26,525 bases of DNA from a virus (IMGVR_UViG_3300025115_000049:1-26525), one strand, 5' to 3'; shown: positions 3,216 through 26,525, counted from the first letter of the stretch. Program-made: numbers and translations. The notes: generated by a model not told the origin, from the letters alone.

Positions 3216-6200
3216 TCAATCAGTTTTCCTAAGCAATTCTCCGACGAAGCTTAGGAGCTGCTCTCCACACTGGTCACAGTAACCGTGTTCTGCCAGCTTG
3301 GCCAAGGCATCTGTCCTACGCTTCTTGCTTTTCTCATTGGCCACAGCCGTCTTATCTGCAATGGTCAATGAGACCACGTTCTTTAGGTCAGAAATGAGCT
3401 TCTTCTCAATGGCCTCCTTGAGCGGAGCATAATCATTGAATGTGAAGGGCCTACCTTGCTCCAGCAGGGTGCTCTTATACACGAAGATGTTGTTCCGGAA
3501 CTCTTTCCGTGAGTTTATAGGCACCCCAATGATCTCCTCAATAGACCTCATAAGTTTTTCATCAGGATCACTATATTCGCCAAGGATACTGTCCAACACC
3601 TTCTCATTCTTGCAAAACGCCTTGGCATTCATTACATAGTTCTCAAATAGAGACTGGGCCTGCTCCTCATAAGCGACCAGGAAGGCCATATTAACCTCCT
3701 TCTTGGCGATCTGCTTATACTCGTAGGCCACTGAATCCTTCTCACCCAGGAGCATGATTTCAATGTATTTCTTCTGCAATTCATCCGTGATGCCGATCTG
3801 ATGGCTAAAGTTTTCCCGTAGGCTCCGGATAATATCAATCGGGTTGACACACTTCTTGTCCTCTTTCATACCCAGAGCGACATTCAATGCATTGATGATG
3901 AACCTGGGTGAAATGCCGGTCATACCCTCTCCGGCGGCCCGGCCTTCCTGTCGCAGAGTCTTAACATCCAGCTCAGCCTTCCTCATTTCTTCCGTAACTT
4001 CACCGTTATAAATTCTCATTTTTTCCAACAGGGATGGAACCTTAGTGGAAGGTGTAAGCCTGGTAAGCACGGCAAACTGTGCCGCGATCCGTAATGTATG
4101 CGGAGCGATATGGATGCCTTTGAAATCGGACTCCCGGATCATCTTTTCATAAATCTTGATTTCATCATTTACCACCACATTCCAAGGCACCTGGATGGGG
4201 TACATCCGGTCATGCAGGGCCTCATTCTTTTTGTCAGCCTTGAAAGAGTCAAACTCATTGGAATTTGTGTGACTAAGTATCAGTTCATCCACATAGATAT
4301 GGGGAAAGCCCGGTGTCTTGATAACCTGCTCCTGTGCCACTGTAATGAATACATATAGAAGCTTGGTGTCACAGTTATGGTTTATAAAACCGTTACCACA
4401 GTAAGCATGACGGTCAGAGTTAATTACCAGGTCATAGACCCTTTCCTTTGGCAAAGATGTAATGGACTCAACGGTATCATAGAAATAGTCCAGGCTGTAT
4501 AGGTCCCACAGTTCCGTTACATCGGTAAAATTTTCCAGTGACCTTATGACATTTTCGGCAAGGTTATAGGACACATGCCCATTGGATATTGCGTTCCTGA
4601 AAGAGCCTTTATCAACATCACATAGGTTGTACTTGATAGTGAATCCGGACTTCACCGCTCTTCTATATGCCTCCTCCATGTTTCCGTACAAGGGGAACAC
4701 ATGTTTATAGGAACGTTCCTGGTATTGAATCTCATCACTGATTTTGTCCAACTTTGACTGTTTCACCCGGCATGTGAATCCAATGTGTTTCCGAAATAGT
4801 ACCACATCTGCCCCGGTGATATTCAAGTGATAGTAATACCTATCGTACTCCTTATTGTACACCTTTGATATTTTGCAGATAATTCCAAATTTTAGCAGCA
4901 TGAACTGTATTTGGTGTGTAAGTTCCTGTGACGCGGAGCAACATCCTACACGATCACATGTAACAGTACCATCACCTGTAAAATATGCGGACAGGAACGA
5001 TGCTACCACCTTCTTAGGAGACCGCAGTATAGACCATGGTATAACCTTCTCGCTCGCGTGATGGAAATCAAATCCAAGCCACATTATGATTTTTTTGAGA
5101 TGGGTGGATGTGAGATAGCTGTTAGTTTTATCACATGCATAACGTAACCCCATGTTCTCGGTAAGACGTTTTACATCATTTCTGATATCACGGTCCATGT
5201 TGGCAATGGAAAATCCATTACCATGGAAAGAGCCTTCGGAAATCAAGTAACCCATTAGTCTTCCCATATCCTCATCGACATATTTCGGAAGACGAACAAC
5301 ACGGGGCAACCTTACAGAGTCGCCCAATAATGACATAATATCCCTGTTGTATAATCGACCCACACTGCAACCAACGGCTTTGGCGACCTCTTTCATTGTC
5401 ATACCGCTTTTATAGAGCCGGACAGCTTCATCCATATCAACGTTTTTCCGGTAAACGTAGTCCTGATTATGGGAACGATGATTGGAACGTTGATAGTGTA
5501 ATAGTTTCTCCGGATATTCGACAAACGTTTCACTATCATAATTGTCGAGCCTTTGAATCGGTATAAAATCGTCCGATCTTATATCCTGTAAGGCAACCCA
5601 ATCGAGTTTTCCAAACCTAACAACCTGGATTCTATGATCTTTTGATCCTTTGAGTCTATAACCCTTACCGGTTACTAGCTCCATGATTTCTTTCTCACCT
5701 TGGTCTACGGTGGTGATAGATTCCACTGTATTCGATCCATCATATACCTTTGTGTTTCCGGTTATATCGGCTATACAGAAAACACCATTTTCTGTTACCA
5801 CCAATGTATCACCTGTAACACACTTTAAAAGCTCAATCGATTCCAATATACCACCGTTCCCTACCTCCAGCTCCCCATCAAACTGATAGGCCCGTGGGTC
5901 CGTTTCACCAAACCTGGAAATCTTGGCCAAGTTAACCCGGCCAATAAGTTCCGATACATCTTGACTTTTTGGGTCCGCTGGCTGAAAGGTTCCAATTCCC
6001 AACCGCTTCTGTTCACTGAACCGGACTTGCTCCACCGGTACATCTTCCCACCGGATATGGCCATCCATACCCTTATACTCATTCTCAACAGTAAAGAGGC
6101 ACTGTGGACAAAGGTGTCCCTCTATCTTTAGACCCAGCATCTCTTGCCACTTGGGCCGGTCTGCATTGGGTATAAGGTGCAGTGGTTCCTCATGCAACGG

Positions 6201-6632
6201 GCACCCCTTGATTACATACTTAGGGGTCTTATCTGCCTCCAGCCCTTTCTTGATAAGTGATGCCAGTGTTGACTTACCAGAGGATACTGGTCCCACAAGA
6301 ATAAGGATACGCTTGCCGGTCTCTGTCCGCCTGGCAGCTGCTTTCAGGAACCTCATGATGTCATGCACCGGTTCATAGGTACCATATATCCTATTGTCAA
6401 AAAACTTGTACCGAACAATGTCCTCATAGCCCAATGTCTTGCAGGTGTCAGGCAGGGCTTCGGTACCATAGGCCATAATCATGTTGTAAATGCGTTCAGG
6501 TGCTGTACAGGCTATACCAGGATTGTCTTTTACCAAACCAAGGTATTCGATCATGGTGCCTGTCCATAGTGTGTTGTCTACTGCCTTTCTCTGTTCCAGA
6601 ATGATTTGCTTGAAATCCAGGTTGTCGTTCAC
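3216..6632 (-). CDS. prkA: PrkA-type AAA+ serine protein kinase, interrupted by an intein
   Basis: The precursor has 1138 residues; removing the intein (271-753) leaves a 655-residue protein, the size of bacterial PrkA/YeaG (about 630-645). N-terminal PrkA AAA domain: Walker A GPVSSGKST at 114-122, the paired-Cys stretches G-C-P-L-H-E-E-P-L and H-L-C-P-Q-C, and GNGGILESIELLK (258-270), which leads into the intein. After the intein, IYVDELILSHTNSNEF and the helical C-terminal PrkA domain (R-S-L-R-E-N-F, then GYCDQCGEQLL near the end) follow. Bacterial PrkA is a cytoplasmic stress or starvation-linked kinase; its bacterial partners SpoVR and YeaH are not seen here. Ribosome site AAGGAG precedes the ATG. 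The role in a phage is unknown; host phosphorylation or an AAA+ remodelling function are guesses. Confidence 0.93.
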   Translation of the reverse strand: MNDNLDFKQIILEQRKAVDNTLWTGTMIEYLGLVKDNPGIACTAPERIYNMIMAYGTEALPDTCKTLGYEDIVRYKFFDNRIYGTYEPVHDIMRFLKAAARRTETGKRILILVGPVSSGKSTLASLIKKGLEADKTPKYVIKGCPLHEEPLHLIPNADRPKWQEMLGLKIEGHLCPQCLFTVENEYKGMDGHIRWEDVPVEQVRFSEQKRLGIGTFQPADPKSQDVSELIGRVNLAKISRFGETDPRAYQFDGELEVGNGGILESIELLKCVTGDTLVVTENGVFCIADITGNTKVYDGSNTVESITTVDQGEKEIMELVTGKGYRLKGSKDHRIQVVRFGKLDWVALQDIRSDDFIPIQRLDNYDSETFVEYPEKLLHYQRSNHRSHNQDYVYRKNVDMDEAVRLYKSGMTMKEVAKAVGCSVGRLYNRDIMSLLGDSVRLPRVVRLPKYVDEDMGRLMGYLISEGSFHGNGFSIANMDRDIRNDVKRLTENMGLRYACDKTNSYLTSTHLKKIIMWLGFDFHHASEKVIPWSILRSPKKVVASFLSAYFTGDGTVTCDRVGCCSASQELTHQIQFMLLKFGIICKISKVYNKEYDRYYYHLNITGADVVLFRKHIGFTCRVKQSKLDKISDEIQYQERSYKHVFPLYGNMEEAYRRAVKSGFTIKYNLCDVDKGSFRNAISNGHVSYNLAENVIRSLENFTDVTELWDLYSLDYFYDTVESITSLPKERVYDLVINSDRHAYCGNGFINHNCDTKLLYVFITVAQEQVIKTPGFPHIYVDELILSHTNSNEFDSFKADKKNEALHDRMYPIQVPWNVVVNDEIKIYEKMIRESDFKGIHIAPHTLRIAAQFAVLTRLTPSTKVPSLLEKMRIYNGEVTEEMRKAELDVKTLRQEGRAAGEGMTGISPRFIINALNVALGMKEDKKCVNPIDIIRSLRENFSHQIGITDELQKKYIEIMLLGEKDSVAYEYKQIAKKEVNMAFLVAYEEQAQSLFENYVMNAKAFCKNEKVLDSILGEYSDPDEKLMRSIEEIIGVPINSRKEFRNNIFVYKSTLLEQGRPFTFNDYAPLKEAIEKKLISDLKNVVSLTIADKTAVANEKSKKRRTDALAKLAEHGYCDQCGEQLLSFVGELLRKTD
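4374..5822 (-). other. intein in PrkA, LAGLIDADG homing type (483 aa)
   Basis: Precursor residues 271-753. The N-terminal splice block starts at Cys271 (CVTGDTLVV); block B is GSKDHRIQVV with its conserved D-H. The C-terminal block ends in INHN followed by Cys as the +1 extein residue, so the penultimate His and terminal Asn are intact. A helix-turn-helix-like segment (T-M-K-E-V-A-K-A-V-G-C-S) lies at intein residues 142-153. Two LAGLIDADG-type helices follow: LMGYLISEGSF (189-199) and VASFLSAYFTGDGTV (273-287), both with acidic residues. All elements look intact, so splicing and homing are probably functional. The joined extein reads ELLK-CDTKLLYVF, continuous with PrkA family sequence. Confidence 0.95.
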
Positions 6633-9660: not shown

Positions 9661-10896
9661 TTACGCCGGTAGGTTGACCACCGCCACACGTTGGTAGTAA
9701 TTGTTGCTGCCGAAGATCGAGCTATGGATTGCATATCGGCTAAGCAACCCAACGGTAGGCTGGAAGCTCTGCTCGAACACGGTCTTGCTGACCATCAGGC
9801 TTACATAAGGCAGGAAGATAATTCCTGCATCATATTCGCTAGGTCCCTTATACCCAACCGTTGCGTAGTCACTGGTGGCGAATGTATCCCGGTATACGGA
9901 GATACGGCCATCAAGGCTACCAACTTTGGATACACCGGAGACCAGTGAGTTTATCTCACCAGGAACCGGAGCAAGGATGAACGAGGAGAGGCTTTCCAGG
10001 GCTGCTACTGTCATTGGTGAGCAGATAACAAAGTTACCAGCGCCCCGACGGGTATTGATGGCGATAAGGTTGGCCTTACGCACGATCATACTGTATAGGG
10101 TCCGGAACTTTTCAACCTGCCACCGACCATCGGCCTGAGTGGAGCTTGCATAGTCCCAGGATGAAGAAACGGCCGCGCTGTTGACTGCATTGACGATTTC
10201 TCTGTCGATTTCGGCAGTGATTTCGTATGCCAGCATGTCCATCATTTCTTCTTCCAGGTCAAGCCCGTGCATGGCTTTCAGGTCCTGAGCAACTTCCAGA
10301 GACCAACGGCTACGTAACTTACGGGTCTTGGCTTCTACCTGCGCTTTTTCCACTGTCATGTTGACTTCTGCGATCTGTGCATACGTACCGATACCGAGAC
10401 CTTGTTCAAGGTGACCAGCGGAGGTCGTTGCATAGGATCCCAAAAGTTCACCAGCGGACGTCAGCCAACCAGCTGAAAGCGTAGAGTCACCAGAGTACCA
10501 TGGGTCAATGTTGTTATACCCAAGCTCATCGTTATACGTAGGCGTGGTTGAGCCATACGGAAGAGCCTGACGGGTATAGGTGTTACCCGACCGGAAACGG
10601 AGGGCGAATGCCAGACCAACGGGCCCTGTCATAGGCTGAACGCCAACGATCTCATGAGCTACCAACTCAGGGAAGGTTCTGCGTACCATTGGGATGGCGA
10701 TCTGGTGGAAATCACCAGAGGTTGCGTATGTATTGGGCGCATTACGACCAATTACGCTGTAGTTACCGGCTTCATTCAGGTAATTGAACTCATTCTCCAG
10801 CATGAGCGCGGTAGCCTTTTTGACCTTAGGATTCTTAATAGGGGCACCCTCATCGAGAATCTCGGTCCATTTGGTTACTAACTGTTTAAGGTCCAT
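9661..10896 (-). CDS. 23: major capsid protein precursor (gp23)
   Basis: A 411-residue T4-type major head protein. Recognisable family blocks are Q-I-A-I-P-M-V-R-R-T-F-P-E-L, A-H-E-I-V-G-V-Q-P-M-T-G-P-V-G-L and A-L-R-F-R-S-G around residues 64-106. The N-terminal propeptide contains FNYLNE followed by A-G-N-Y-S-V-I-G; cleavage after Glu42 would fit the (L/I)-X-E rule of the T4 gp21 protease and give a mature protein of about 369 residues. A second possible site is I-L-D-E at 13-16. AGGAGG precedes the ATG. It lies 16 bases after the scaffold gene, at the end of the late head operon, and ends before a strong terminator. Confidence 0.95.
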   Translation of the reverse strand: MDLKQLVTKWTEILDEGAPIKNPKVKKATALMLENEFNYLNEAGNYSVIGRNAPNTYATSGDFHQIAIPMVRRTFPELVAHEIVGVQPMTGPVGLAFALRFRSGNTYTRQALPYGSTTPTYNDELGYNNIDPWYSGDSTLSAGWLTSAGELLGSYATTSAGHLEQGLGIGTYAQIAEVNMTVEKAQVEAKTRKLRSRWSLEVAQDLKAMHGLDLEEEMMDMLAYEITAEIDREIVNAVNSAAVSSSWDYASSTQADGRWQVEKFRTLYSMIVRKANLIAINTRRGAGNFVICSPMTVAALESLSSFILAPVPGEINSLVSGVSKVGSLDGRISVYRDTFATSDYATVGYKGPSEYDAGIIFLPYVSLMVSKTVFEQSFQPTVGLLSRYAIHSSIFGSNNYYQRVAVVNLPA

Positions 10897-10912: not shown

Positions 10913-11797
10913 TTATATCTTGTTCTCTTTCAGAATTGTGATCCACCGTTGTTTGATCCGGTCAAACGGGTTTACTTCCTCGACTACTGGTTCCTTAGTC
11001 TCTGGATCTACCACCGCATTACCGGTTCCATTACCAGCTGGATCGATACTGGCAACTAAATCCTCCGCCTTGGCTCCGCATTCCGAGCACACATTGTCCT
11101 CGCCTTCTTTCACGGAGTAGGTTTTGCCGCAGGTCTTACAAGTGACTACATCAGACTTGGCTTCACCTGCTGGAATCTCAGGGGTTTCATCTTCCTTGAT
11201 GACATGGTCAACAACAAAGTCAAACTTCTTGTCAATCTCGGCCTTGCTTCTTAGGTCACCTAGCAGACCAACAACCTTGATCCTCTTGGCTTCGGAGAGA
11301 CCCTCACACTTCCTCTGAATATAAAGCTGTGATGCCATTTCTTTGGCGTCGCTTTCAAGCTCCATGTTCTTAGAGGTGAGTTCATTGGTCTGATCCTTCA
11401 GTTTGAGGATTTCATCCTTCGCTTCCTTCAACAGAGACTTCACATCATCCGAGAGAACTCCCTCATCAATGGCTAATCTCTTTTTGAAATCTTCGATCAG
11501 GTCATTGTACAGCTCACCCTTCTTGGCAAATTCCATAACTCTCTCAGGAATCTGAAGCTCCTCGTCGAGTACCGAGTCAACAAAATTTGAGAACTTGGAA
11601 GTGATGTCCTTCTTGTATTCATCAAATTTGGTCTCATACTCCTCAACAAGCCGCTCTTTTTCCTCAGACACTATGGAGTCCGCTCGTTCCCTGGCCTTCA
11701 CATCGATCAGCATTTCCAGTTTTTCAACCAGAAGTGTCTGCTGGGCCTCGTCCAGGGTGTTGATGCCCAAAATCTTTTTGATCTCTTCTATATTCAT
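10913..11797 (-). CDS. 22: prohead core scaffold protein (gp22) with zinc ribbon
   Basis: A highly charged, helical 294-residue protein located directly before gp23, as gp22 is in T4. Residues 1-200 are mostly coiled-coil-like (E/K-rich heptads), and several L-x-E triplets (T-L-D-E, V-L-D-E) could be gp21 cleavage sites, as expected for a scaffold degraded during maturation. Residues 218-242 carry a zinc ribbon, C-K-T-C...C-S-E-C (Cys 220, 223, 237, 240), which I do not know from T4 gp22. The C-terminus N-P-F-D-R-I-K-Q-R-W may bind capsid protein. The start is the ATG at 11797, six bases after AGGAGG; a TTG two codons earlier is less likely. Confidence 0.85.
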   Translation of the reverse strand: MNIEEIKKILGINTLDEAQQTLLVEKLEMLIDVKARERADSIVSEEKERLVEEYETKFDEYKKDITSKFSNFVDSVLDEELQIPERVMEFAKKGELYNDLIEDFKKRLAIDEGVLSDDVKSLLKEAKDEILKLKDQTNELTSKNMELESDAKEMASQLYIQRKCEGLSEAKRIKVVGLLGDLRSKAEIDKKFDFVVDHVIKEDETPEIPAGEAKSDVVTCKTCGKTYSVKEGEDNVCSECGAKAEDLVASIDPAGNGTGNAVVDPETKEPVVEEVNPFDRIKQRWITILKENKI

Positions 11798-11984: not shown

Positions 11985-11992
11985 TATTTATA
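11985..11992 (-). promoter_or_regulatory. T4-type late promoter box TATAAATA before gp22-gp23
   Basis: An exact TATAAATA on the minus strand, in the 246-base gap upstream of gp22, so transcription would run into scaffold and capsid genes. It lies about 190 bases before the gp22 start, giving a long leader containing the hairpin at 11838-11858. A dedicated late promoter for the two most abundant head proteins is sensible. Confidence 0.7.
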
Positions 11993-12043: not shown

Positions 12044-12334
12044 CTAGGATTTGGCAAAAGCCTTCAGTGTGGCTCTGACATCCTTGGCGTCTGGGTGCCG
12101 CCATGATGACAGGTTATTCAAGATATACAGGCATTGCACGGCCAGCTCATGTCCGGTCATGCCTAAGGCTGCCTTGCAATAATTTACAGCATAATTGAGT
12201 GATGTGTTATATGATTTCCGGTCATCAAGTATCTTTTCTATGGCAAGCCGGACCTCATCCTCTGTGACTTTGGCCTCGGTGATTACGGCACCATGTTTTA
12301 CATCCATCATATAATCTTTATCATATAGGTCCAT
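12044..12334 (-). CDS. candidate internal head protein, leader type B (MDLYDKDY)
   Basis: A 96-residue protein inserted between gp21 and gp22. It begins MDLYDKDYMMDVKH, almost the same leader as gene 12574-12798 (MDLYQKDYIADVKH), after which the sequences diverge. The leader is followed by A-V-I-T-E/A-K, an (I/L)-X-E site of the type cut by T4 gp21, which would release the first 20 residues. The body is helical (E-D-E-V-R-L-A-I-E-K-I-L, then an Ala/Leu-rich pair of helices) with a basic C-terminus K-A-F-A-K-S. AAGGAG precedes the ATG. Proposed: a protein targeted into the prohead and processed there; body function unknown. Confidence 0.7.
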   Translation of the reverse strand: MDLYDKDYMMDVKHGAVITEAKVTEDEVRLAIEKILDDRKSYNTSLNYAVNYCKAALGMTGHELAVQCLYILNNLSSWRHPDAKDVRATLKAFAKS

Positions 12335-12360
12335 GTTATATCTCCTTATGTTGACCGGTT

Positions 12361-12549
12361 CTACTTTTTCTTTATAATGCGGAGCTTCTTTTCCTGTAGG
12401 TTGAAATCATATACACTGTCGTCTGGTGGTGGATACTCTTTGTTCATTTGGGTCATTATATCCTCAATGAGGTCCGCACTTATACTCATCTGCTTGATCA
12501 TTTTTAGGAACTTTTGGTCCTTCTTATATTGGTCAAGTAGACCGGTCAT
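12361..12549 (-). CDS. small basic-tailed protein, 62 aa
   Basis: A 62-residue unknown protein in the extra gene cluster between gp21 and gp22. It starts MTGLLDQYKKDQKF and is helical up to about residue 38, followed by a proline turn (E-Y-P-P-P-D-D) and a basic end (K-K-L-R-I-I-K-K-K). AGGAG is correctly placed before the ATG. It contains a potential L-I-E/D head-protease triplet near residue 28, but does not share leader A or B. Neighbours suggest a head-associated role; nothing more can be said. Confidence 0.62.
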   Translation of the reverse strand: MTGLLDQYKKDQKFLKMIKQMSISADLIEDIMTQMNKEYPPPDDSVYDFNLQEKKLRIIKKK

Positions 12550-12573
12550 GTGTGCTCCTGTTGAATCAAATTG

Positions 12574-12798
12574 TCATAGTTTACTAATCACCTTTTCAAA
12601 AGCTAATAGGTCCTTCTTGAGCCTCATATACAGGTCGTCAACATTCTTGAAAAGCTTATGACCAGGATCCATGTGGCACATGAAGTCAAACAGCTTTTCC
12701 AGGTAAGCGTATGTTTCACCGGACATCTGGTGGGGACTATTGCCTTCACTAACCTGGTGTTTGACATCCGCTATGTAGTCCTTTTGGTATAGGTCCAT
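12574..12798 (-). CDS. candidate internal head protein, leader B with body alpha
   Basis: A 74-residue protein. Residues 1-14, MDLYQKDYIADVKH, match the leader of gene 12044-12334. The C-terminal half (V-D-D-L-Y-M-R-L-K-K-D-L-L-A-F-E-K-V) clearly resembles the C-terminal half of gene 13052-13267 (V-D-R-L-Y-A-R-I-R-K-D-L-I-T-F-N-N-M), which carries a different leader. The protein therefore combines the leader of one paralogue with the body of another. A V-S-E triplet at 16-18 is a poorer match to the gp21 rule. Its ATG overlaps the upstream stop by one base (TAATG), implying coupled translation. Confidence 0.68.
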   Translation of the reverse strand: MDLYQKDYIADVKHQVSEGNSPHQMSGETYAYLEKLFDFMCHMDPGHKLFKNVDDLYMRLKKDLLAFEKVISKL

Positions 12799-13037
12799 TA
12801 TAAATAGTCACCCATATCAGCCTCAGCCCATCCTTTATCATATCCATCCCGGTAAGCGTTTTCCAATACATCATCCAGAGCAGCATTGAAATCTTTTGGC
12901 TTGGCTATCGAGGCTATAAGTTTTGCAACTGCCTTTTTTGTATGACCTGAATATTTCATACTAAGTGGAGAAGCTTTGGCCTCATTAAGGTACCTATCGA
13001 TTTTATTGGTTATTATATGTTCCTCTCCTCTACCCAT
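12798..13037 (-). CDS. candidate internal head protein, leader A with body beta; start codon uncertain
   Basis: From the ATG at 13037 the product has 79 residues and reads MGRGEEHIITNKIDRYLNE/A. The ITNKIDRYLNE leader is identical to that of gene 13052-13267, but the codon aligned with that gene's ATG is ATA (13016-13014) here. The good ribosome site (GAGGAGAGGAAC) sits before the ATA, not before the ATG at 13037. Either translation starts at a non-standard ATA, giving 72 residues, or at the weak upstream ATG. The body (K-A-V-A-K-L-I-A-S-I-A-K-P-K-D-F, then E-N-A-Y-R-D-G-Y-D-K-G-W-A-E) is unrelated to the sister protein. Y-L-N-E fits head-protease cleavage. Confidence 0.62.
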   Translation of the reverse strand: MGRGEEHIITNKIDRYLNEAKASPLSMKYSGHTKKAVAKLIASIAKPKDFNAALDDVLENAYRDGYDKGWAEADMGDYL

Positions 13038-13051
13038 GAATTAGATTGTAA

Positions 13052-13267
13052 TCACCATTCTTCTACCATATTGTTAAAAGTGATCAAATCTTTTCTGATT
13101 CTAGCATATAATCTATCCACTTCATTGAAATCTTTAGGATATTTGCTTGTGTGCTCCATAAAAATTTTCAATAATGCCAGTGTACGAGCCACATCTGTTG
13201 TTATTTCTTCTGGTGAAATTCTACTAGGGCCTTCATTCAGGTACCTATCAATCTTATTGGTTATCAT
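13052..13267 (-). CDS. candidate internal head protein, leader A with body alpha
   Basis: A 71-residue protein starting MITNKIDRYLNE/G. The start at 13267 is secure: GGGAGG stands correctly before it and the ATG overlaps the gp21 protease stop by ATGA, so the protein is translated coupled to the very protease expected to process it. The leader ends in Y-L-N-E, the same four residues as at the predicted maturation site of this phage's capsid protein. The body is helical (E-I-T-T-D-V-A-R-T-L-A-L-L-K) and shares its C-terminal half with gene 12574-12798. Proposed: packaged internal or core protein, by analogy with T4 internal proteins, whose ten-residue leaders are removed by gp21. Confidence 0.72.
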   Translation of the reverse strand: MITNKIDRYLNEGPSRISPEEITTDVARTLALLKIFMEHTSKYPKDFNEVDRLYARIRKDLITFNNMVEEW

Positions 13268-13872
13268 ATGTTCCTCCCTATGTTTTCCAGTACTTGCCAT
13301 ACATGCTTGTAATAGGCTGACTTTGCCTCTTTTAACCTAATCGCCGGATCAATTACCGGCTCTACAATTGGTACGTTAAACTCCGCGCCCTCGTATATTC
13401 CTTTCATCCATGAAGGAGGATTTGATGGCCCAAGTACCACATCCCAACACAGGAGGTTGAAGTCATCATTCACATAGCTATCGGTTTCATTGACTGTACC
13501 AAGTCCTCTGGACGATATACCAACCTTACCTTCCCTAATAAGTGTTTTGGTTATATTACCCATAGGTGTATCGAGAACTTTTGCCTTTCCGTGAACATCA
13601 TTATTAACCCAATTGAGGCTCTCAATGAGTATAGCGATTCTATCCGGATTGATTGTTGGTTTTTCCGGGTGACCAAGTTCCCCCCAAGCGCACTTGCCTT
13701 CTACGGCGGCCATATACTTGTTGATCTCACGGTCCAATATGGCCCGCTTATATCTCCGGCCGTTCTCATTCATTATATCGGCGGATGAAAATACACCCTC
13801 AATGAATACATTACCGGAGCCCTCCGGTTCGTGCCATTTGACATCGAACCTATCCTCAGTGATTAACTTCAT
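13264..13872 (-). CDS. 21: prohead maturation protease (gp21)
   Basis: A 202-residue serine protease of the T4 gp21/herpesvirus assemblin-like clan, slightly shorter than T4 gp21 (212). Diagnostic blocks: V-F-I-E-G-V-F-S-S-A-D-I (22-33), the catalytic His68 in G-E-L-G-H-P, and the catalytic Ser within I-S-S-R-G-L-G (119-125). It acts inside the prohead, cutting scaffold, capsid protein and packaged small proteins after (L/I)-X-E. Its own C-terminal R-L-K-E/A-K may be a self-cleavage site. GAGGAG precedes the ATG. It sits in the T4-like order after gp67 and gp68 and overlaps the next small gene by ATGA. Confidence 0.93.
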   Translation of the reverse strand: MKLITEDRFDVKWHEPEGSGNVFIEGVFSSADIMNENGRRYKRAILDREINKYMAAVEGKCAWGELGHPEKPTINPDRIAILIESLNWVNNDVHGKAKVLDTPMGNITKTLIREGKVGISSRGLGTVNETDSYVNDDFNLLCWDVVLGPSNPPSWMKGIYEGAEFNVPIVEPVIDPAIRLKEAKSAYYKHVWQVLENIGRNI

Positions 13873-13884
13873 GATTTACTCCTC

Positions 13885-14166
13885 TTACTCAGTTGGTACA
13901 GCTTCTACCGTCGATCCAAACCTGGTGGTGTAAGCATCTGCTACTACTCCCCATATGATCTTGGACTTCAATGGGAACTTGTTTGCCAACTTGCTTACCA
14001 GCTCAAAACAATCAGCATATTTCTTAGGCGTGGTGGCCTTATTGAACCTGTACTGAATCCTCTTGATTCCGGTTACCAGGCTGGAATATTCCGCCGGCTG
14101 GATTGTGGTATCATCTCCAGCTGCATCCATCTCGTTTAGGTAATTGTCGATCTTGTCTATAATCAT
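13885..14166 (-). CDS. 68: gp68-like prohead core protein, leader A
   Basis: A 93-residue protein in the place T4 gp68 occupies (between gp67 and gp21), though shorter than T4 gp68 (141). It begins MIIDKIDNYLNE/M, nearly the same leader as genes 13052-13267 and 12798-13037, ending in Y-L-N-E, a head-protease site. The body is basic and mainly helical (S-L-V-T-G-I-K-R-I-Q-Y-R-F-N-K, then F-E-L-V-S-K-L-A-N-K-F) and resembles neither sister. The gp68 name rests on synteny. GGAGG precedes the ATG, and five bases separate it from the gp67-like stop. Confidence 0.68.
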   Translation of the reverse strand: MIIDKIDNYLNEMDAAGDDTTIQPAEYSSLVTGIKRIQYRFNKATTPKKYADCFELVSKLANKFPLKSKIIWGVVADAYTTRFGSTVEAVPTE

Positions 14167-14171
14167 TTCCC

Positions 14172-14444
14172 TTATTTCCTCCTTAATGATCTCCGTGTTC
14201 TTTTTGGCGGTTCTGGCTCCGGATCAGGCTCTACTTCCGGATCAATGTCCTCCGGTTCGTTTACTTGTGGTGTAACACTGGTCACAGGCAGGTTCATTAC
14301 ATCACCTGTGAGTCCCAGCTTGGCCTTAACATACTCGTTCTTGGCTACCTTGATCTGGCCCGTAAGCTTATCCTTTGCATCCACAAAATTCTCGGCCTCG
14401 AAATCATCCAACGCTGATTTGATTACCTCTTGGTCCATCGGCAT
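14172..14444 (-). CDS. 67: gp67-like prohead core protein
   Basis: A 90-residue protein directly after the portal gene, as gp67 is in T4 (80 residues). The N-terminal half (V-I-K-S-A-L-D-D-F-E-A-E-N-F-V-D-A-K-D-K-L, then A-K-N-E-Y-V-K-A-K-L-G-L) resembles the helical part of T4-type gp67. The C-terminus is acidic and proline-rich (E-P-E-D-I-D-P-E-V-E-P-D-P-E-P-E) ending in a basic tail K-R-T-R-R-S-L-R-R-K. The ATG at 14444 is chosen because GGAGG stands eight bases before it; the upstream TTG in frame overlaps that ribosome site. Two late boxes precede the gene. Confidence 0.75.
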   Translation of the reverse strand: MPMDQEVIKSALDDFEAENFVDAKDKLTGQIKVAKNEYVKAKLGLTGDVMNLPVTSVTPQVNEPEDIDPEVEPDPEPEPPKRTRRSLRRK

Positions 14445-14463
14445 AACAGTTTCCTCCAAATTT

Positions 14464-14485
14464 TATTTATACAAACCTATTTATA
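14464..14485 (-). promoter_or_regulatory. paired T4-type late promoter boxes
   Basis: Two exact TATAAATA boxes on the minus strand (14464-14471 and 14478-14485), 14 bases apart, directly before the gp67-like gene; the second overlaps the portal stop codon. Two identical boxes in tandem are unlikely by chance and suggest strong late transcription of gp67, gp68, gp21 and the small internal-protein genes. Confidence 0.78.
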
Positions 14486-17324
14486 CAACCTCACTGGTTG
14501 GCTCTTCCTCAATAGGAGCCTCTTGTGGCTCCTGGGCTCCAGGTTGGCCTCCATTAAACATATTCATACCAGTAGCTTCCTCTGCCTGTGGAAAATATCT
14601 CTTATCCAACTCATGGCCTTTCTTATTGTCCTCAAAATCCTTCTCATCCCAGTTCAAATATTTCCTCATAAGGAACGATTTGGAAAACTCAGGGCTATCT
14701 TTCATGGCATTATAGTTAGCAAATTCCATCTCCATGAATGACTGTTCCATGGACTCGTGGTAATTAGATGGTGGATTCATTTCAATGGACATACTGTTAT
14801 AGTCCAGGTTATACTCTTTCTTTATTCCCCTGAACTCTAAATGGAGCAAGAACAACCTGAGAAACTCATCACAGAATATTCTCTGCTGGCGCTCCAGGAA
14901 CATAGCCCACTTGATCTCATCACGGGAGATTTGGTTGGCTTGGCCACCGAACATAACCTCTTCACCCTTCTCGGCGCCCTGTGTTACACGGGAAATGGGG
15001 TACTTGAGGGCCCGAAACAGCTTCCTGGCAAAATAGTATACATCATCCAGCTCAGTGAAGCCCTTCGCGTTACCCCCGATGGTCTCTATTGTGGATCCAC
15101 GACCATCGCTATTTTTTACAAACACACCACAGGCCAAGGCGAAATTATGGTTCTCACCAGGATCTTTGATGGTGAGACAGCCAACATCTGCCTTTTCGGC
15201 TAGGAACTCAACAGAAGCGACCTTGTGGTTTATTGTCACATTATGCTTGAACTCGGTGTAGGTGTTGAAGCCGAAGCCTAATTTGATGATCTTCAAAAGG
15301 TACTTGTTTCCTAACACATATTTATCATTTCCTCTTGCGCCGTTTAGTAGTTTCCAATGTTTTACAAAACCAGGATTTTTGTTTAAAGCGACACCCAGAC
15401 TTGACAAGTTAGGAGAGTTACCCCTTATATATTCCAAGACGAAGTAATGACAACACTTTTCATCAATTTTTATAGGAGGTCTACCGTCTCTTTTTAACAT
15501 AGCCTCTTGGAACACTTTCTGGTACTCAGGATCCTGATGTTTTTTCAACATTGTTGCGCTGGTGGCTTGTTTATGTTTTTGGTTTTTTGGCCTGGACACA
15601 AGCATGTGAAAGTGATCATATTGATCTATCCATCTTTGCCTCATTAGGTCACCTTGCTTCTTCCTATTTTCCGGATTGGCAAAATATTCCTTTTTGGACT
15701 TAGAGACCGCTTCTCTCTGGCGCTGTCTTACCTCAGGAACATTCAACGCTTTCAGAGGAGCTAAATGGGACTGGCGTTCCTTATTGGTGCTAACATGGTA
15801 CTGTATATGCTCATGTATAGGCATGGAAACCAGGTTATCAGGATTGTTATTGTGCCTGTTGAAGTCTTTATGGTGTATAACGTTCCCATGTTTTGCTTTA
15901 GGTCCAAAAACTCTATGTGCATACTTCCAACTTTCGTCTTCCAAATCAAAGAGCACAGTGTAATCATTGGAGTTTTTATTCATTTTCCTCTTGTCCAGGT
16001 AGAGGGGCATTACACTGTCGCCGGTTTTGAGGTTTTGTGCCTGGACCTCTGAGCCATCTCTCATAACAAATTTATGATCTGGGGTACAATCTACGGACTC
16101 GCCATTATCCAGTGTTACACGGACCATCGGGGAGTCTTTCCTGGTAATACCTGCCCACTCTATCTCACCATGACCAATTTTACCAGTTTTTTGGTCCACG
16201 GTGTAAACATAGTTGGTCTTACCGGACTCATATTCGGAGATGATCTCCGACAGTAATAGCTTCCGGCCGTCTACCAGTGTGACTCCAGTGCTAAGTTGAA
16301 AACACCCAACGGGGACATAAAAATTTTCTTGGAGGTTCATGATTTCCGGCTCTTGGCTCAAGGCGCCTGTAAGGGGGTTGAAGGTTTGCTTCTTGACAAA
16401 CTTCTGCTTGATCTTCTCCACGTACTTGATAGACTTATCACGGGGCATATTACCAGTATCAATCTTGAACACAAATCTTTCAGGGGACCTAACCAGCCTG
16501 TATATGACCACGGAGGTTTCCAGGAGCTTTAGCTGGTTATATGGTACCTTGGCCTTTTCCAGGTAACCCAGTATCTCATACCTTGTCTTACCATATATAC
16601 CATAGTTGATGAAGCCGACCTGTTCTGGATTGAATATAACCAGTGCATTTTTATTTGCCTGGATAAATTTTTCTGCCTCCATTCTATTCAGAGGACGTCG
16701 GATGCTAGGTGCCAGGTATTGATAGAAGGTAGTTATACGGCCGTTGATAGGATTCAACTCATAGTCCATGGTTTCCGATGGCAGGCGCTTTATGTTGATG
16801 ATGCCACTGGATAGCTTATTGGGGTTGATAATGCGTTCATAGTATAACCGGCCATCAATAAAATATGTCCGGACCATGTCCCATAGGTTATCATTTATAT
16901 CAATGCGCTCAAAGAATAAGGTTTCAAACTCTCTCAGGAGAACCTTGCGGATATTCTCATTGGACTTGAGTTTTTCATCTATAATGTTCAGGCTGATAAT
17001 GTTGAGGTTCTCATCCACCTTACAGGACTCATTGGTGGCATCTTCTATAACATCACCAATTTCTGGATATTCAGCCATGACCCTGTAATTATTGATCCTG
17101 GCCAACTCGGTTTCATATGCTCTATTGATGAAGGTGTTGAAGAAGGAGTTATAGCCCATGAGACCCTGATGTCCGGTCATCTGGAGTAAAGCAACATCCT
17201 CCACACCTTCACCGGACTGAAGCAGCCATTCTTTATCGGTTAGAGCATCGTCACCCCTTTTTTGGAACGCCTTAGTGGACTCATCTATCCTATTGGTTCC
17301 TACCAAGAAATCATACCATGCCAT
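14481..17324 (-). CDS. 20: portal protein (gp20) interrupted by an intein
   Basis: The 947-residue precursor contains a 398-residue intein; the spliced protein has 549 residues (T4 gp20: 524). T4-type portal signatures: F-F-N-T-F-I-N-R-A-Y-E-T-E-L-A-R and P-E-I-G-D-V-I-E-D-A-T-N-E (about 60-100), V-E-K-I-K-Q-K-F-V (302-310), and after the intein D-G-R-G-S-T-I-E-T-I-G-G-N, matching the T4 W-x-P-R-x-D-G-x-R-G-T-E-I-x-T-L-P-G-G block. It forms the dodecameric head vertex channel that nucleates the prohead and docks the terminase. The ATG at 17324 has AAGGA seven bases before it and lies five bases after the upstream stop; an earlier in-frame start would overlap that gene. The C-terminus is acidic. 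Confidence 0.94.
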   Translation of the reverse strand: MAWYDFLVGTNRIDESTKAFQKRGDDALTDKEWLLQSGEGVEDVALLQMTGHQGLMGYNSFFNTFINRAYETELARINNYRVMAEYPEIGDVIEDATNESCKVDENLNIISLNIIDEKLKSNENIRKVLLREFETLFFERIDINDNLWDMVRTYFIDGRLYYERIINPNKLSSGIINIKRLPSETMDYELNPINGRITTFYQYLAPSIRRPLNRMEAEKFIQANKNALVIFNPEQVGFINYGIYGKTRYEILGYLEKAKVPYNQLKLLETSVVIYRLVRSPERFVFKIDTGNMPRDKSIKYVEKIKQKFVKKQTFNPLTGALSQEPEIMNLQENFYVPVGCFQLSTGVTLVDGRKLLLSEIISEYESGKTNYVYTVDQKTGKIGHGEIEWAGITRKDSPMVRVTLDNGESVDCTPDHKFVMRDGSEVQAQNLKTGDSVMPLYLDKRKMNKNSNDYTVLFDLEDESWKYAHRVFGPKAKHGNVIHHKDFNRHNNNPDNLVSMPIHEHIQYHVSTNKERQSHLAPLKALNVPEVRQRQREAVSKSKKEYFANPENRKKQGDLMRQRWIDQYDHFHMLVSRPKNQKHKQATSATMLKKHQDPEYQKVFQEAMLKRDGRPPIKIDEKCCHYFVLEYIRGNSPNLSSLGVALNKNPGFVKHWKLLNGARGNDKYVLGNKYLLKIIKLGFGFNTYTEFKHNVTINHKVASVEFLAEKADVGCLTIKDPGENHNFALACGVFVKNSDGRGSTIETIGGNAKGFTELDDVYYFARKLFRALKYPISRVTQGAEKGEEVMFGGQANQISRDEIKWAMFLERQQRIFCDEFLRLFLLHLEFRGIKKEYNLDYNSMSIEMNPPSNYHESMEQSFMEMEFANYNAMKDSPEFSKSFLMRKYLNWDEKDFEDNKKGHELDKRYFPQAEEATGMNMFNGGQPGAQEPQEAPIEEEPTSEVV
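15111..16304 (-). other. intein in portal protein, HNH homing type (398 aa)
   Basis: Precursor residues 341-738. It starts at Cys341 (CFQLSTGVTLVDG), has block B V-D-C-T-P-D-H-K-F, and ends N-F-A-L-A-C-G-V-F-V-K-N followed by Ser as the +1 residue. The terminal Asn is present but the usual penultimate His is Lys. An HNH nuclease lies at intein residues 140-170 (G-N-V-I-H-H-K-D-F-N-R-H-N-N-N-P-D-N-L), followed by a Lys/Arg-rich DNA-binding stretch (about 190-280) with NUMOD-like pieces. The joined extein reads F-Y-V-P-V-G/S-D-G-R-G-S-T, continuous with the portal family. It is unrelated to the PrkA intein, so the two were gained independently. Confidence 0.94.
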
Positions 17325-17328
17325 ATTC

Positions 17329-17694
17329 TTATCCTTCCAGTTTTTTAACTTCCTCAGACTCACCGGTTATCTTGCGTCTGTGGATGATCTGCTCCCGCTT
17401 CCTCACAAAAGATTCAATGTCTATGTTGGCAGCGCGACCAAGTATTTCAGCTACCGCTTGAACCCACACATTTTCATTCCGCATTTCTTCCTGGACTGCT
17501 TGGACACCAACAAGCCGGTTATACAGCTCCTGGACCATGAGAAAGGTTCTTATTGGAGCACAATCGGCCACGAGTACCGGCTGGCCCGTATTCAACTCAG
17601 ATGGCTTCCACCAAGATTCAATGAAGTTGGGACATTTGCCATCCGTGAGTCCCCACCAATAACATTCACCCTTTTTACAAGTATTCTGAATCAC
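17329..17694 (-). CDS. hypothetical Cys/Trp-rich protein, GTG start
   Basis: A 121-residue unknown protein. The N-terminal third has C-K-K-G-E-C-Y-W-W-G, G-K-C-P-N and a further Cys in V-A-D-C-A-P (four cysteines in about 45 residues), which could bind a metal. The rest is helical (F-L-M-V-Q-E-L-Y-N-R-L-V, then V-Q-A-V-A-E-I-L-G-R) with a basic segment R-K-R-E-Q-I-I-H-R-R-K. The start is GTG, with GAGGTGA a few bases upstream. It ends four bases before the portal ATG, so it is co-transcribed with head genes. Function unknown. Confidence 0.7.
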   Translation of the reverse strand: MIQNTCKKGECYWWGLTDGKCPNFIESWWKPSELNTGQPVLVADCAPIRTFLMVQELYNRLVGVQAVQEEMRNENVWVQAVAEILGRAANIDIESFVRKREQIIHRRKITGESEEVKKLEG

Positions 17695-19800: not shown

Positions 19801-20130
19801 TTATTCTTCCTTAGCCTTCTGGGCTTTTCGGCGCTTGGCTTTGGATCTTGGGTAGTTCTGATTGGCCTCTACGTCCTGTTCGGCTTCCTTCTCAGTTTTA
19901 CCCTTGCCCCGCCAGTATGTACTCGATTTCCAGGTATCTATGGCCCTGGCGCAATATCTCTTGGCACCATCATCACCCAGCTCATCATCCATAGAGGCCA
20001 CACATTTGTCAAAGAAGCCCTTTTCATCTGGCATGATTCCATGGTTTTTACCCCAGGTCTTAACCCACCGAATCATGCGTTCCGTCTCTTCCTCATTGAT
20101 CATCCGTCTGATCTTTTCAACAGTGTTCAT
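19801..20130 (-). CDS. small protein with head-protease-like leader and basic tail
   Basis: A 109-residue protein. The N-terminus MNTVEKIRRMINE/E resembles leader A of the head cluster (K-I-x-R-x-(L/I)-N-E) and ends in an (I/L)-X-E triplet. The body is helical with Trp/Arg features (M-I-R-W-V-K-T-W-G-K-N-H-G-I, D-D-G-A-K-R-Y-C-A-R-A-I). The C-terminal 20 residues are strongly basic (R-S-K-A-K-R-R-K-A-Q-K-A-K), which would suit binding packaged DNA. Its ATG overlaps the upstream stop by ATGA. It might be a further internal or virion protein; the leader match is shorter than in the head cluster, so this is tentative. Confidence 0.68.
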   Translation of the reverse strand: MNTVEKIRRMINEEETERMIRWVKTWGKNHGIMPDEKGFFDKCVASMDDELGDDGAKRYCARAIDTWKSSTYWRGKGKTEKEAEQDVEANQNYPRSKAKRRKAQKAKEE

Positions 20131-24304: not shown

Positions 24305-26525
24305 ATGAACGATCTCGGCTATGTCAATAGGCAACCTATATATTATGTAGTCAAGGACCGTAATCCAGGCCCAACCGACTCAGCCTATACTCCACCTATG
24401 CTCTGGTGGAATAAAACGAGTAACCGTGCATACATCATGGTAGGTAAGGTTGGCGATGTTGCCACATGGTCTCAATACATTGGTTCGTCTATCAACCTGA
24501 TATCCCAATCCACCGTACTGTCTATAACCAATTGTACCAATCCTCCTCCTACCGAGGTTATGGGTGACAGGTACATCCTTGACACTACGGCAGGCACGGT
24601 TCATGCTAACTGGGACGGTGCTTCCAAGGAATCCATAGTTGAGTTCAATGGAGCTGTATGGGTAGAGACCGTGGCCTCAGAGGGTATAGTGGTCGAGGTC
24701 ATAGATGAGGACACTCTTTACTGGTATATCACCTCTTGGCAAAAAATCACCAACCAGGATATATCCACAAGTAGCTCACCATCGTTTGTTGGCCTAACCA
24801 CCTCAACCATTTCCACTGGTAGTATCTCTGCATCAAGTGTTATGGTGGTGCCGGTTCTATCGGCCGGTGAATCTGGTGCAACACGTGGTCAAATATATCT
24901 TGACAGTGATGATAATAACATATACAGGTATACAGGTAGTGAGTGGTTAGCAGCTGCCGGTTCATCCGGCAGTAGCGGCAGCTCTGGTTCGGCAGGTAGT
25001 GCTGGTTCCAGTGGGTCGAGTGGTTCAGTTGGCTCGTCCGGCAGCTCCGGTAGTGCTGGTTCAAGCGGTAGTGCTGGTTCCAGTGGGTCTTCCGGTAGTG
25101 CGGGCTCCAGCGGGCAGGCTGGATCCTCCGGCAGTGCGGGTTCCAGTGGGTCATCCGGCGGCTCCGGCTCGTCCGGGTCAGCAGGCTCCAGTGGGTCATC
25201 CGGTTCAACCGGCTCGAGTGGTATCGATGGTTCTTCTGGCACATCAGGCTCAGCTGGATCTTCTGGGTCCAGTGGGTCGGCAGGGTCCTCCGGTAGTGCG
25301 GGTTCCAGTGGGTCATCCGGCACAGATGGTTCCAGTGGGTCAGCCGGCAGCAGTGGTTCAGCAGGCTCCTCCGGTAGTGCTGGATCATCAGGATCCTCGG
25401 GTCCGGCCGGATCATCCGGTACAGACGGTTCCAGCGGGTCGGCAGGCTCCTCCGGTAGTGCTGGATCATCAGGATCCTCGGGTCCGGCCGGATCATCCGG
25501 TACAGACGGTTCCAGCGGGTCGGCAGGCTCCTCGGGTAGTGCTGGCTCCAGTGGTACGGATGGCTCAAGTGGTTCCTCCGGTAGCTCAGGGTCCTCCGGT
25601 AGTGCGGGTTCCAGTGGTTACTCTGGCTCCTCTGGATCTTCAGGTAGTGCAGGGTCCAGCGGGTCGGCTGGATCATCCGGTACAGATGGTTCCAGTGGGT
25701 CCGCCGGTAGTTCCGGCTCGGCTGGTAGTAGTGGATCAAGCGGGGGCACAGGCTCCTCAGGTGAAACGGGCTCATCCGGATCAAGCGGTAGTTCAGGATC
25801 CTCTGGTAGCGCCGGGTCATCCGGTAGTGCGGGTTCCAGTGGGACAGATGGCTCATCTGGCTCTAGTGGATCTAGTGGATCCTCAGGTTCATCCGGTTTA
25901 CCAGGTGCCGCATATACATTGGCCTTTACCAATGCTAACCTGAGTGCCGGTGTGCTAACGGTAACACATAACCTGAACAACCAATATAATGTGGTTAGTG
26001 TGTATGACAACAATAACCTGGAAATTGTACCAGATAATATTACAGCAACAAGTAGTACAGTGGTAACAATAGACCTGAGCACATTTGGTACTATAGTTGG
26101 TACCTGGAATGTGGTGGTTAATTATAGTGCCTCCTCGTCCGGCAGTAGTGGGTCTAGCGGGTCTAGTGGATCGTCCGGCTCCAGCGGTAGCAGCGGTTCC
26201 TCCGGCACTGACGGCTCATCCGGCACAGATGGCTCAAGTGGCTCATCCGGTACCTCTGGCTCTAGTGGAGCCACCGGTGCCGCCGGTACCTCTGGCTCAA
26301 GTGGCTCTTCCGGTACCTCTGGCTCAGCTGGCTCTTCCGGTACCTCTGGCTCTAGTGGGTCTAGTGGTTCCTCTGGGTCCTCCGGCACTGACGGCTCAGT
26401 CGAGCTGGCCACCTCCGCGGAATCCGTGACCGGGACCAGCGCGACACTTGCCGATACGCCGGCCGGCGGCCAGGCAAAAGCCGAGGACGAACGGATCCGG
26501 CAATGCGAAAACTTCAGCGAGACCA
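24305..26525 (+). CDS. giant Gly-Ser-rich collagen-like tail fibre/adhesin (3' end outside window)
   Basis: The frame is open from the ATG at 24305 to the window end (740 complete codons), so the gene is partial. The N-terminal domain (about 1-218) has fibre-type units: Y-V-V-K-D-R-N-P-G, G-D-R-Y-I-L-D...H-A-N-W-D-G-A-S-K-E, V-E-F-N-G-A-V-W (DUF2793-like) and L-S-A-G-E-S-G-A-T-R-G-Q-I-Y-L-D-S-D. Residues 219-533 are almost pure G-X-Y triplets with X/Y mostly Ser (G-S-S, G-S-A, occasional G-T-D and G-P-A). A beta domain of about 75 residues follows (L-S-A-G-V-L-T-V-T-H-N-L-N-N...W-N-V-V-V-N-Y), then a second G-X-Y tract to about 26398. Probably a trimeric fibre shaft. Weak ribosome site GGCGG. 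Long ORFs on other frames here are repeat shadows. Confidence 0.88.
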   Translation, partial: MNDLGYVNRQPIYYVVKDRNPGPTDSAYTPPMLWWNKTSNRAYIMVGKVGDVATWSQYIGSSINLISQSTVLSITNCTNPPPTEVMGDRYILDTTAGTVHANWDGASKESIVEFNGAVWVETVASEGIVVEVIDEDTLYWYITSWQKITNQDISTSSSPSFVGLTTSTISTGSISASSVMVVPVLSAGESGATRGQIYLDSDDNNIYRYTGSEWLAAAGSSGSSGSSGSAGSAGSSGSSGSVGSSGSSGSAGSSGSAGSSGSSGSAGSSGQAGSSGSAGSSGSSGGSGSSGSAGSSGSSGSTGSSGIDGSSGTSGSAGSSGSSGSAGSSGSAGSSGSSGTDGSSGSAGSSGSAGSSGSAGSSGSSGPAGSSGTDGSSGSAGSSGSAGSSGSSGPAGSSGTDGSSGSAGSSGSAGSSGTDGSSGSSGSSGSSGSAGSSGYSGSSGSSGSAGSSGSAGSSGTDGSSGSAGSSGSAGSSGSSGGTGSSGETGSSGSSGSSGSSGSAGSSGSAGSSGTDGSSGSSGSSGSSGSSGLPGAAYTLAFTNANLSAGVLTVTHNLNNQYNVVSVYDNNNLEIVPDNITATSSTVVTIDLSTFGTIVGTWNVVVNYSASSSGSSGSSGSSGSSGSSGSSGSSGTDGSSGTDGSSGSSGTSGSSGATGAAGTSGSSGSSGTSGSAGSSGTSGSSGSSGSSGSSGTDGSVELATSAESVTGTSATLADTPAGGQAKAEDERIRQCENFSET
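25361..25522 (+). repeat. exact 81-bp tandem repeat in the Gly-Ser fibre gene
   Basis: 25361-25441 and 25442-25522 are identical over 81 bases (27 codons, nine G-X-Y triplets) and in frame. A partial third unit follows from 25523. Within a longer region of degenerate Gly-Ser codons this identical pair marks a recent unequal exchange. Confidence 0.93.
26399..26525. other. compositional break at the window end
   Basis: From about 26399 the fibre reading frame continues, but the base and codon use changes abruptly: GCG, CCG, GAG, CTG, GCC and CGG codons replace the GGT/TCC/AGT/GCT/ACA style of the phage. The product changes from Gly-Ser triplets to V-E-L-A-T-S-A-E-S-V-T-G-T, a common fibre motif, then a charged stretch. 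Either a horizontally acquired fibre tip or a chimeric assembly join inside the low-complexity tract. Confidence 0.6.

Follow-up and report, generated by a model that had tools for sequence, protein, structure and literature searches.

Head gene cassette and its small proteins

The head gene cassette of a T4-like virus contains several small genes whose products begin alike and then diverge, which raises the question of what a common N-terminus does on otherwise dissimilar proteins. Comparison with related viruses suggested that these N-termini are very probably capsid-targeting leaders such as T4 internal proteins have, carried by internal proteins and trimmed by the gp21 protease. The cassette lies on the minus strand of the window (the whole stretch of DNA analyzed, a 26.5 kb virus record of 26,525 nucleotides) in the order gp20 portal with intein, o95, A93, gp21, B71, C, D74, E62, F96, gp22, and gp23, and one further candidate (X109) lies outside it:

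19801-20130, minus strand: X109, probably one more leader protein, encoded away from the cassette, MNTVEKIRRMINE (20092-20130) with the cut before E (match in G001)
14481-17363, minus strand: gp20 portal protein with intein (Pfam Portal_T4, 4.3e-84; Intein_splicing, 5.5e-14)
14464-14471 and 14478-14485, minus strand: late-promoter sequences of the T4 type (TATAAATA, two copies), preceding the block of leader genes (script)
14172-14459, minus strand: o95, conserved small protein without leader at the T4 gp67 position
13885-14166, minus strand: A93, leader MIIDKIDNYLNE (14131-14166), predicted cut after E12 with M as the next residue; its gene lies where T4 has gp68, between gp20 and gp21
13264-13872, minus strand: gp21 prohead protease (Pfam Peptidase_S77, 3.4e-32; PHROG head maturation protease, 6.5e-53)
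13052-13267, minus strand: B71, leader MITNKIDRYLNE (13232-13267), predicted cut between E12 and G; ribosome-binding site GGGAGGAACAT
12798-13037, minus strand: C, leader (MGRGEEH)IITNKIDRYLNE (12981-13037), predicted cut between E and A
12574-12798, minus strand: D74, second leader type MDLYQKDYIADVKHQVSE (12745-12798), possible cut between VSE and G
12361-12549, minus strand: E62, small ORF with two internal L/I-x-E and no recognizable leader, left out of the leader family
12044-12334, minus strand: F96, second leader type MDLYDKDYMMDVKHGAVITE (12275-12334), predicted cut between ITE and A (tblastn matches, alignments to leaderless relatives)
11985-11992, minus strand: further T4-type late-promoter sequence, upstream of gp22 (script)
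10913-11794, minus strand: gp22 scaffold with C-terminal zinc-ribbon-like insert (Pfam T4_CASP, 5.2e-10)
9661-10896, minus strand: gp23 major capsid protein (tblastn to T4-like capsid proteins)

The nearest capsid proteins of isolated T4-like phages were only ~36% identical to the gp23 of the window (tblastn), and IMG/VR held 58 related loci, the top one at 80%. The only cellular-genome match of the capsid protein was a 9.8 kb contig (L159) assigned to the MAG of a Thermoplasmata archaeon, which may be a virus placed in the wrong bin. The zinc-ribbon-like segment of gp22 (CxxC...CxxC, CKTCGKTYSVKEGEDNVCSECG) lies near its C-terminus. Elsewhere in the window, a probable large terminase split by an intein-like insert was recognized by eye (3216-6632, minus strand), as well as a long collagen-like GSSG/GSAG repeat protein that is probably a tail fiber (24305-26525, plus strand).

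A sequence-only reading of this DNA had described the YLNE-leader genes as a family forming a block of five between gp21 and gp22, where T4 has none. Five ORFs do occupy this interval, which is empty in T4, but A93 lies outside it, between gp20 and gp21; within the interval, B71 and C carry the YLNE leader, whereas D74 and F96 carry another leader not listed before and E62 has none recognizable. The gp20-gp22 interval of related loci was often full of small, diverse ORFs with the same style of opening, such as ~8 in L071 and ~10 in L090. In L060, a 432-residue protein (3817-5115) encoded between gp20 and the gene at the gp67 position had by eye the look of a papain-type cysteine protease (PTTFSLAQFCPTVRDQGNVGSCTGFG). 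No convincing known domain was found in PHROGs or Pfam for the small proteins of the window, including any family match for A93, and neither A93 nor B71 had a tblastn match among 50,697 phage records.

Two leader types on unrelated bodies

A93, B71, and C had a common 12-residue N-terminus (IxxKIDxYLNE) followed by divergent sequence, as had been noticed from the sequence, and a motif learnt with the window held out scored them at 17.4, 16.5, and 16.5 bits, respectively. Between their bodies, no relation was detectable for A93 and B71 (z=0.1) or A93 and C (z=-0.3), and that of B71 and C was weak (z=2.6). The start of C is uncertain, since an ATA codon (13016) is aligned with the ATG of B71 and the sole upstream ATG (13037) lengthens the leader to 19 residues (MGRGEEHIITNKIDRYLNE).

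Such common N-termini might be a mere trace of recent gene duplication or a translation-start RNA element, and B71 and C also have a ribosome-binding-site region in common (GAGGAACAT). However, the leader codons of B71 and C differed by four synonymous and no nonsynonymous changes (six and three, respectively, for A93 and B71), and the peptide motif recurred in 25 phages. The synonymous-only changes between B71 and C point to conservation of, and selection on, the peptide; synonymous leader changes ruled out an RNA or start-site element and the unrelated bodies a simple gene duplication, leaving this explanation hardly credible.

An AF2 model of A93 comprised a helix at residues 2-13, a stretch with pLDDT<50 at residues 12-17 (over the predicted cut), and then a helical domain; Foldseek returned no match to the model below E=1. 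Homologues of A93 were found in nine related loci, in which the helix was retained and the cut site shifted downstream.

D74 and F96 had a second common leader (MDLYxKDYxxDVKH), and neither these two proteins nor E62 matched the held-out KID motif. The D74 leader ends in VSE, which is off-consensus compared to L/I-x-E. Another common start, MFED(L/I)I, without L/I-x-E, was seen in three proteins of the window encoded on the minus strand at 943-1227 (MFEDIIKANKH), 1681-1950 (MFEDLISGSTT), and 1960-2862 (MFEDLIGSKVG), the last of which contains an exact internal direct repeat of ~37 residues (EYTNKLGNQHPPVSGDNYNLGSVGIGDGSMSFSDGIR).

Recurrence of the leader in related viruses

The profile search of the leader proposed in the sequence-only reading recovered it at the N-termini of proteins from related genomes. 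A motif learnt by EM from relatives only (I-x-[ED]-K-I-[DEN]-x-Y-L) marked 23/659 protein N-termini compared to 12/3054 internal windows in eight long contigs with the training sequences excluded (~9-fold, p=4e-10). Glutamate, the residue behind which T4 gp21 cleaves, was enriched at +2 beyond the motif, a position outside the motif itself, both in proteins outside the training set (12/23, p=5e-8) and overall (28/68, p=1e-13), and other offsets were without comparable excess. The consensus of 89 proteins was MxxxxKIxxYLxE, with nothing conserved beyond.

Under the T4 rule, fixed beforehand as L/I-x-E within residues 4-20, 44 of the 68 distinct cassette proteins qualified compared to 16.5 +/- 3.2 for shuffled N-termini. 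The remaining ORFs in these loci also exceeded their shuffles, but by less (z 3.5 and 2.4), partly because further leader genes are among them. A shorter leader class with the layout of T4 leaders, M-x(2-5)-[YFW][LIVM]xE, was present at 26/673 starts compared to 6/2520 internal methionines, an enrichment that is descriptive as the class was defined after examples had been seen. In the more distant T4-like gp21 loci that served as a negative control (L002-L055), either leader class was found in 0/34 nearby ORFs.

Exchange of leaders between proteins

Leaders within one phage were more alike than those of different phages (5.29 vs 3.71 of 11 identities; 0/2000 permutations), and the bodies within one phage were unrelated, one pair excepted. 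B71 and D74 had homologous bodies (z=13.5) with unrelated leaders (z=-0.2), D74 and F96 had a common leader on unrelated bodies (z=0.4), and in G001, independently, another two homologous bodies carried leaders that differ. Judged by these alignments, leaders and bodies shuffle, with tags exchanged between unrelated bodies.

The body of F96 was homologous to leaderless proteins of ~78 residues from Rhizobium and Sinorhizobium phages (tblastn, alignments) and to two leaderless IMG/VR proteins (L153 and L154). Several of these leaderless homologues start at, or a few residues from, the predicted F96 cut (ITE followed by AKV), with that of phiM9 starting MKV, and the leader of F96 is thus read as an add-on. 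X109 was 43% identical over 83 residues to a G001 protein starting MRLEQYIKE, followed by A; this was its one relative, and none was found in viral contigs (pattern search) or phages.

Sites for the gp21 protease: cargo or core

The leaders of A93, B71, and C end in LNE and that of F96 in ITE, both of the gp21 type L/I-x-E. Behind the leader, such sites were depleted in the bodies (33 vs 46.5 expected, z=-2.3), with none in those of A93, B71, C, D74, F96, and X109, compared to 407 observed vs 200 expected in the gp22 family (z=17), the scaffold being shredded in T4. Bodies poor in gp21 sites next to a scaffold rich in them favor T4-style internal proteins trimmed a single time; by its sequence, the body would not be shredded by gp21, as is the case for the internal proteins of T4.

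Alternatively, the small proteins could have a structural role in the core of the prohead, as T4 gp67 and gp68 do; they would dock there by the leader, serve head shape, and be chopped up and expelled instead of delivered. T4 core proteins are likewise gp21 substrates (PMC9026906), and A93, which takes the place of gp68, is conserved across nine related loci. However, T4 gp67 and gp68 contain 3.5-3.8 L/I-x-E per 100 residues (3.5-5.9 across gp67, gp68, and gp22) compared to bodies below chance here; B71, C, D74, and E62 had no homologue in relatives, unlike core parts; and the cargo of relatives includes enzymes. A core role for these proteins as a group is unlikely on this evidence. A93 itself, found in nine loci while B71, C, D74, and E62 had no homologues in relatives, may be a lineage-specific conserved core component rather than injected cargo.

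Only o95 and A93 lie between gp20 and gp21, as do T4 gp67 and gp68, and several internal gp21 sites were present in neither A93 (none in its body, compared to five in gp68) nor the o95 family. In the latter (o95 of the window and its orthologues), L/I-x-E was strongly avoided, with 8 sites where 36 were expected (z=-5.3); in contrast to T4 gp67, these proteins look as though they were kept whole despite the gp21 protease. Comparison of o95 with gp67 gave no profile match (hhalign probability 0.13%, from shallow alignments).

Capsid protein and proposed docking of the leader

Two stretches at the N-terminus of the capsid protein bear on how leader proteins might enter the head:

10771-10896, minus strand: gp23 propeptide, predicted cut between NYLNE42 and A
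10849-10881, minus strand: gp23 leader-like N-terminal stretch LVTKWTEILDE followed by G, residues 6-16 (leader-motif match of capsid N-termini)

The NYLNEA at residues 38-43 of the capsid protein, to which attention had been drawn earlier, was found as described, and the site was conserved, 31 of 32 distinct relatives having [YFWSMI][LIMF]xE where the cut is predicted. In addition, the capsid N-terminus of relatives (L[VI]xKWxx[IV]LxE followed by G) matched the cargo motif, with 52% reaching 7 bits vs 3% of shuffles; the capsid protein of the window itself scored only 4.4 bits. The cargo motif was absent above background at gp22 N- and C-termini and gp21 N-termini, and gp20 was also without it. 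This resemblance suggests that cargo and shell may dock at one shared site of the core, a suggestion rather than proof since it rests on one homologous family.

Leader genes of relatives also occur between tail genes, as might be expected if the leader docked proteins to some other late structure (tail, baseplate, or membrane) and its L/I-x-E end were incidental. Such an incidental end is at odds with the glutamate enriched at +2 of the leader helix, with the A93 orthologues, which retain an x-E end (L/I-x-E in most) despite altered spacing, and with the aromatic-L-x-E found likewise at the capsid cut, and docking elsewhere is quite improbable. Capsid-targeting leaders with gp21-type trimming, as originally proposed, were supported as the best explanation by the +2 glutamate, the leader exchange, the site-poor bodies, and the conserved capsid site.

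According to this explanation, a short amphipathic N-terminal helix (IxxKIDxYL or MDLYxKDYxxDV) would dock a late-made protein on the prohead core, probably at the site of the capsid propeptide, whose start (LVxKWxxILxE followed by G) is similar. Once assembly is complete, gp21 would cut behind the leader-final L/I-x-E, and the body, left intact, would remain alongside the DNA within the head and probably be delivered to the host from there. Recombination would exchange leaders between genes, such that a protein gaining a leader would become cargo. We infer the docking partner as well as cleavage, packaging, and injection. Sorting of proteins into the T4-type scaffold core has been described as mysterious (PMC9958956), and a motif that is recognizable on unrelated proteins and resembles the capsid N-terminus makes the docking question testable.

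Cargo in relatives and its possible delivery

Leader-type tags were found in relatives on dozens of different proteins, enzymes included. These comprised a SAM lyase (PF23780, 8e-12) with the leader VNVEDKIDKILVE followed by A and a GTG start with ribosome-binding site; a nitrilase-like carbon-nitrogen hydrolase (7.6e-19); and a HAD-type phosphatase (8e-5, under the curated cut-off). The SAM lyase family protein at L118 17245-17823, on a related 127 kb contig, has a leader of the KID type that ends in LVE before an A. A recurrent leader family was phrog_11975, with the leader M[RK][LF]xx[YF][ILV]xE and its glutamate invariant in nine sequences:

L147, 656-1372, 1372-2043, and 2783-3517: phrog_11975 members
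L119, 4963-5931: phrog_11975 member
L133, 3938-4549: phrog_11975 member
L144, 2405-2980: further phrog_11975 member
L091, 15787-16410: further phrog_11975 member

Distant relatives of phrog_11975 occur in the jumbo phages Atu_ph07 and SCTP-2. The LYRG motif of this family had suggested something like an ADP-ribosyltransferase, a reading that was given up (AF2 pLDDT 34, no PDB sequence match).

Phage T3 has SAM-degrading enzymes that act against restriction (PMC7877911), and T4 injects IPI*, which inhibits restriction (PMC3012670), precedents that make delivery of leader proteins with the DNA plausible. From T4 and the enzymatic cargo in relatives, we infer injection into the host, and the tagged proteins suggest that this lineage may routinely load its particles with proteins that are to enter the bacterium. 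We further propose, tentatively and as something short of probable, that the leader mimics the start of the capsid propeptide at the same core docking site, that the tag is moved freely by recombination, and that the head serves as a general delivery vehicle, including for SAM lyase; if so, the SAM lyase could put SAM-dependent restriction out of action just upon entry. The motif also offers a search key for candidate injected proteins, potentially anti-defense factors, in phages without a cultured host.

Comparison with known systems

Capsid-targeting sequences are carried by T4 IPI, IPII, IPIII, and Alt (Mullaney and Black, 1996; reviewed in PMC9026906, PMC3012670); the kind of leader is already known, and its sequence, scale, and modularity here are new. 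As for T4 internal proteins, a short common N-terminal propeptide (about 9-20 residues) ending in L/I-x-E occurs on otherwise unrelated proteins, the genes are encoded with a gp21 protease (S77), gp22 scaffold (T4_CASP), and late promoters (TATAAATA), a single cut is predicted to spare the body, and turnover between relatives is fast. In contrast, the KID-class leader is unlike MKTYQEFIAE, the T4 IPIII leader, which scored -13 bits with the KID motif, and hence T4-like function is claimed for the leaders and not common descent; the shorter leader class of relatives is T4-like in architecture only. Further differences are that the genes form clusters between gp20, gp21, and gp22 but are also found elsewhere, that some relatives of the window phage have more leader genes per contig, and that natural leader swapping and add-on leaders are documented here.

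The trimming of head proteins predicted here also has a parallel in giant phages such as SPN3US and phiKZ, in which a gp21-like protease removes propeptides from ejected head proteins and, in SPN3US, gp53 and gp54 have an identical N-terminus and are diverged elsewhere (PMC5694885, PMC9026906). The giant-phage propeptides are mostly >100 residues with the phiKZ cut at S/A-x-E, compared to leaders of about 9-20 residues ending in L/I-x-E here.
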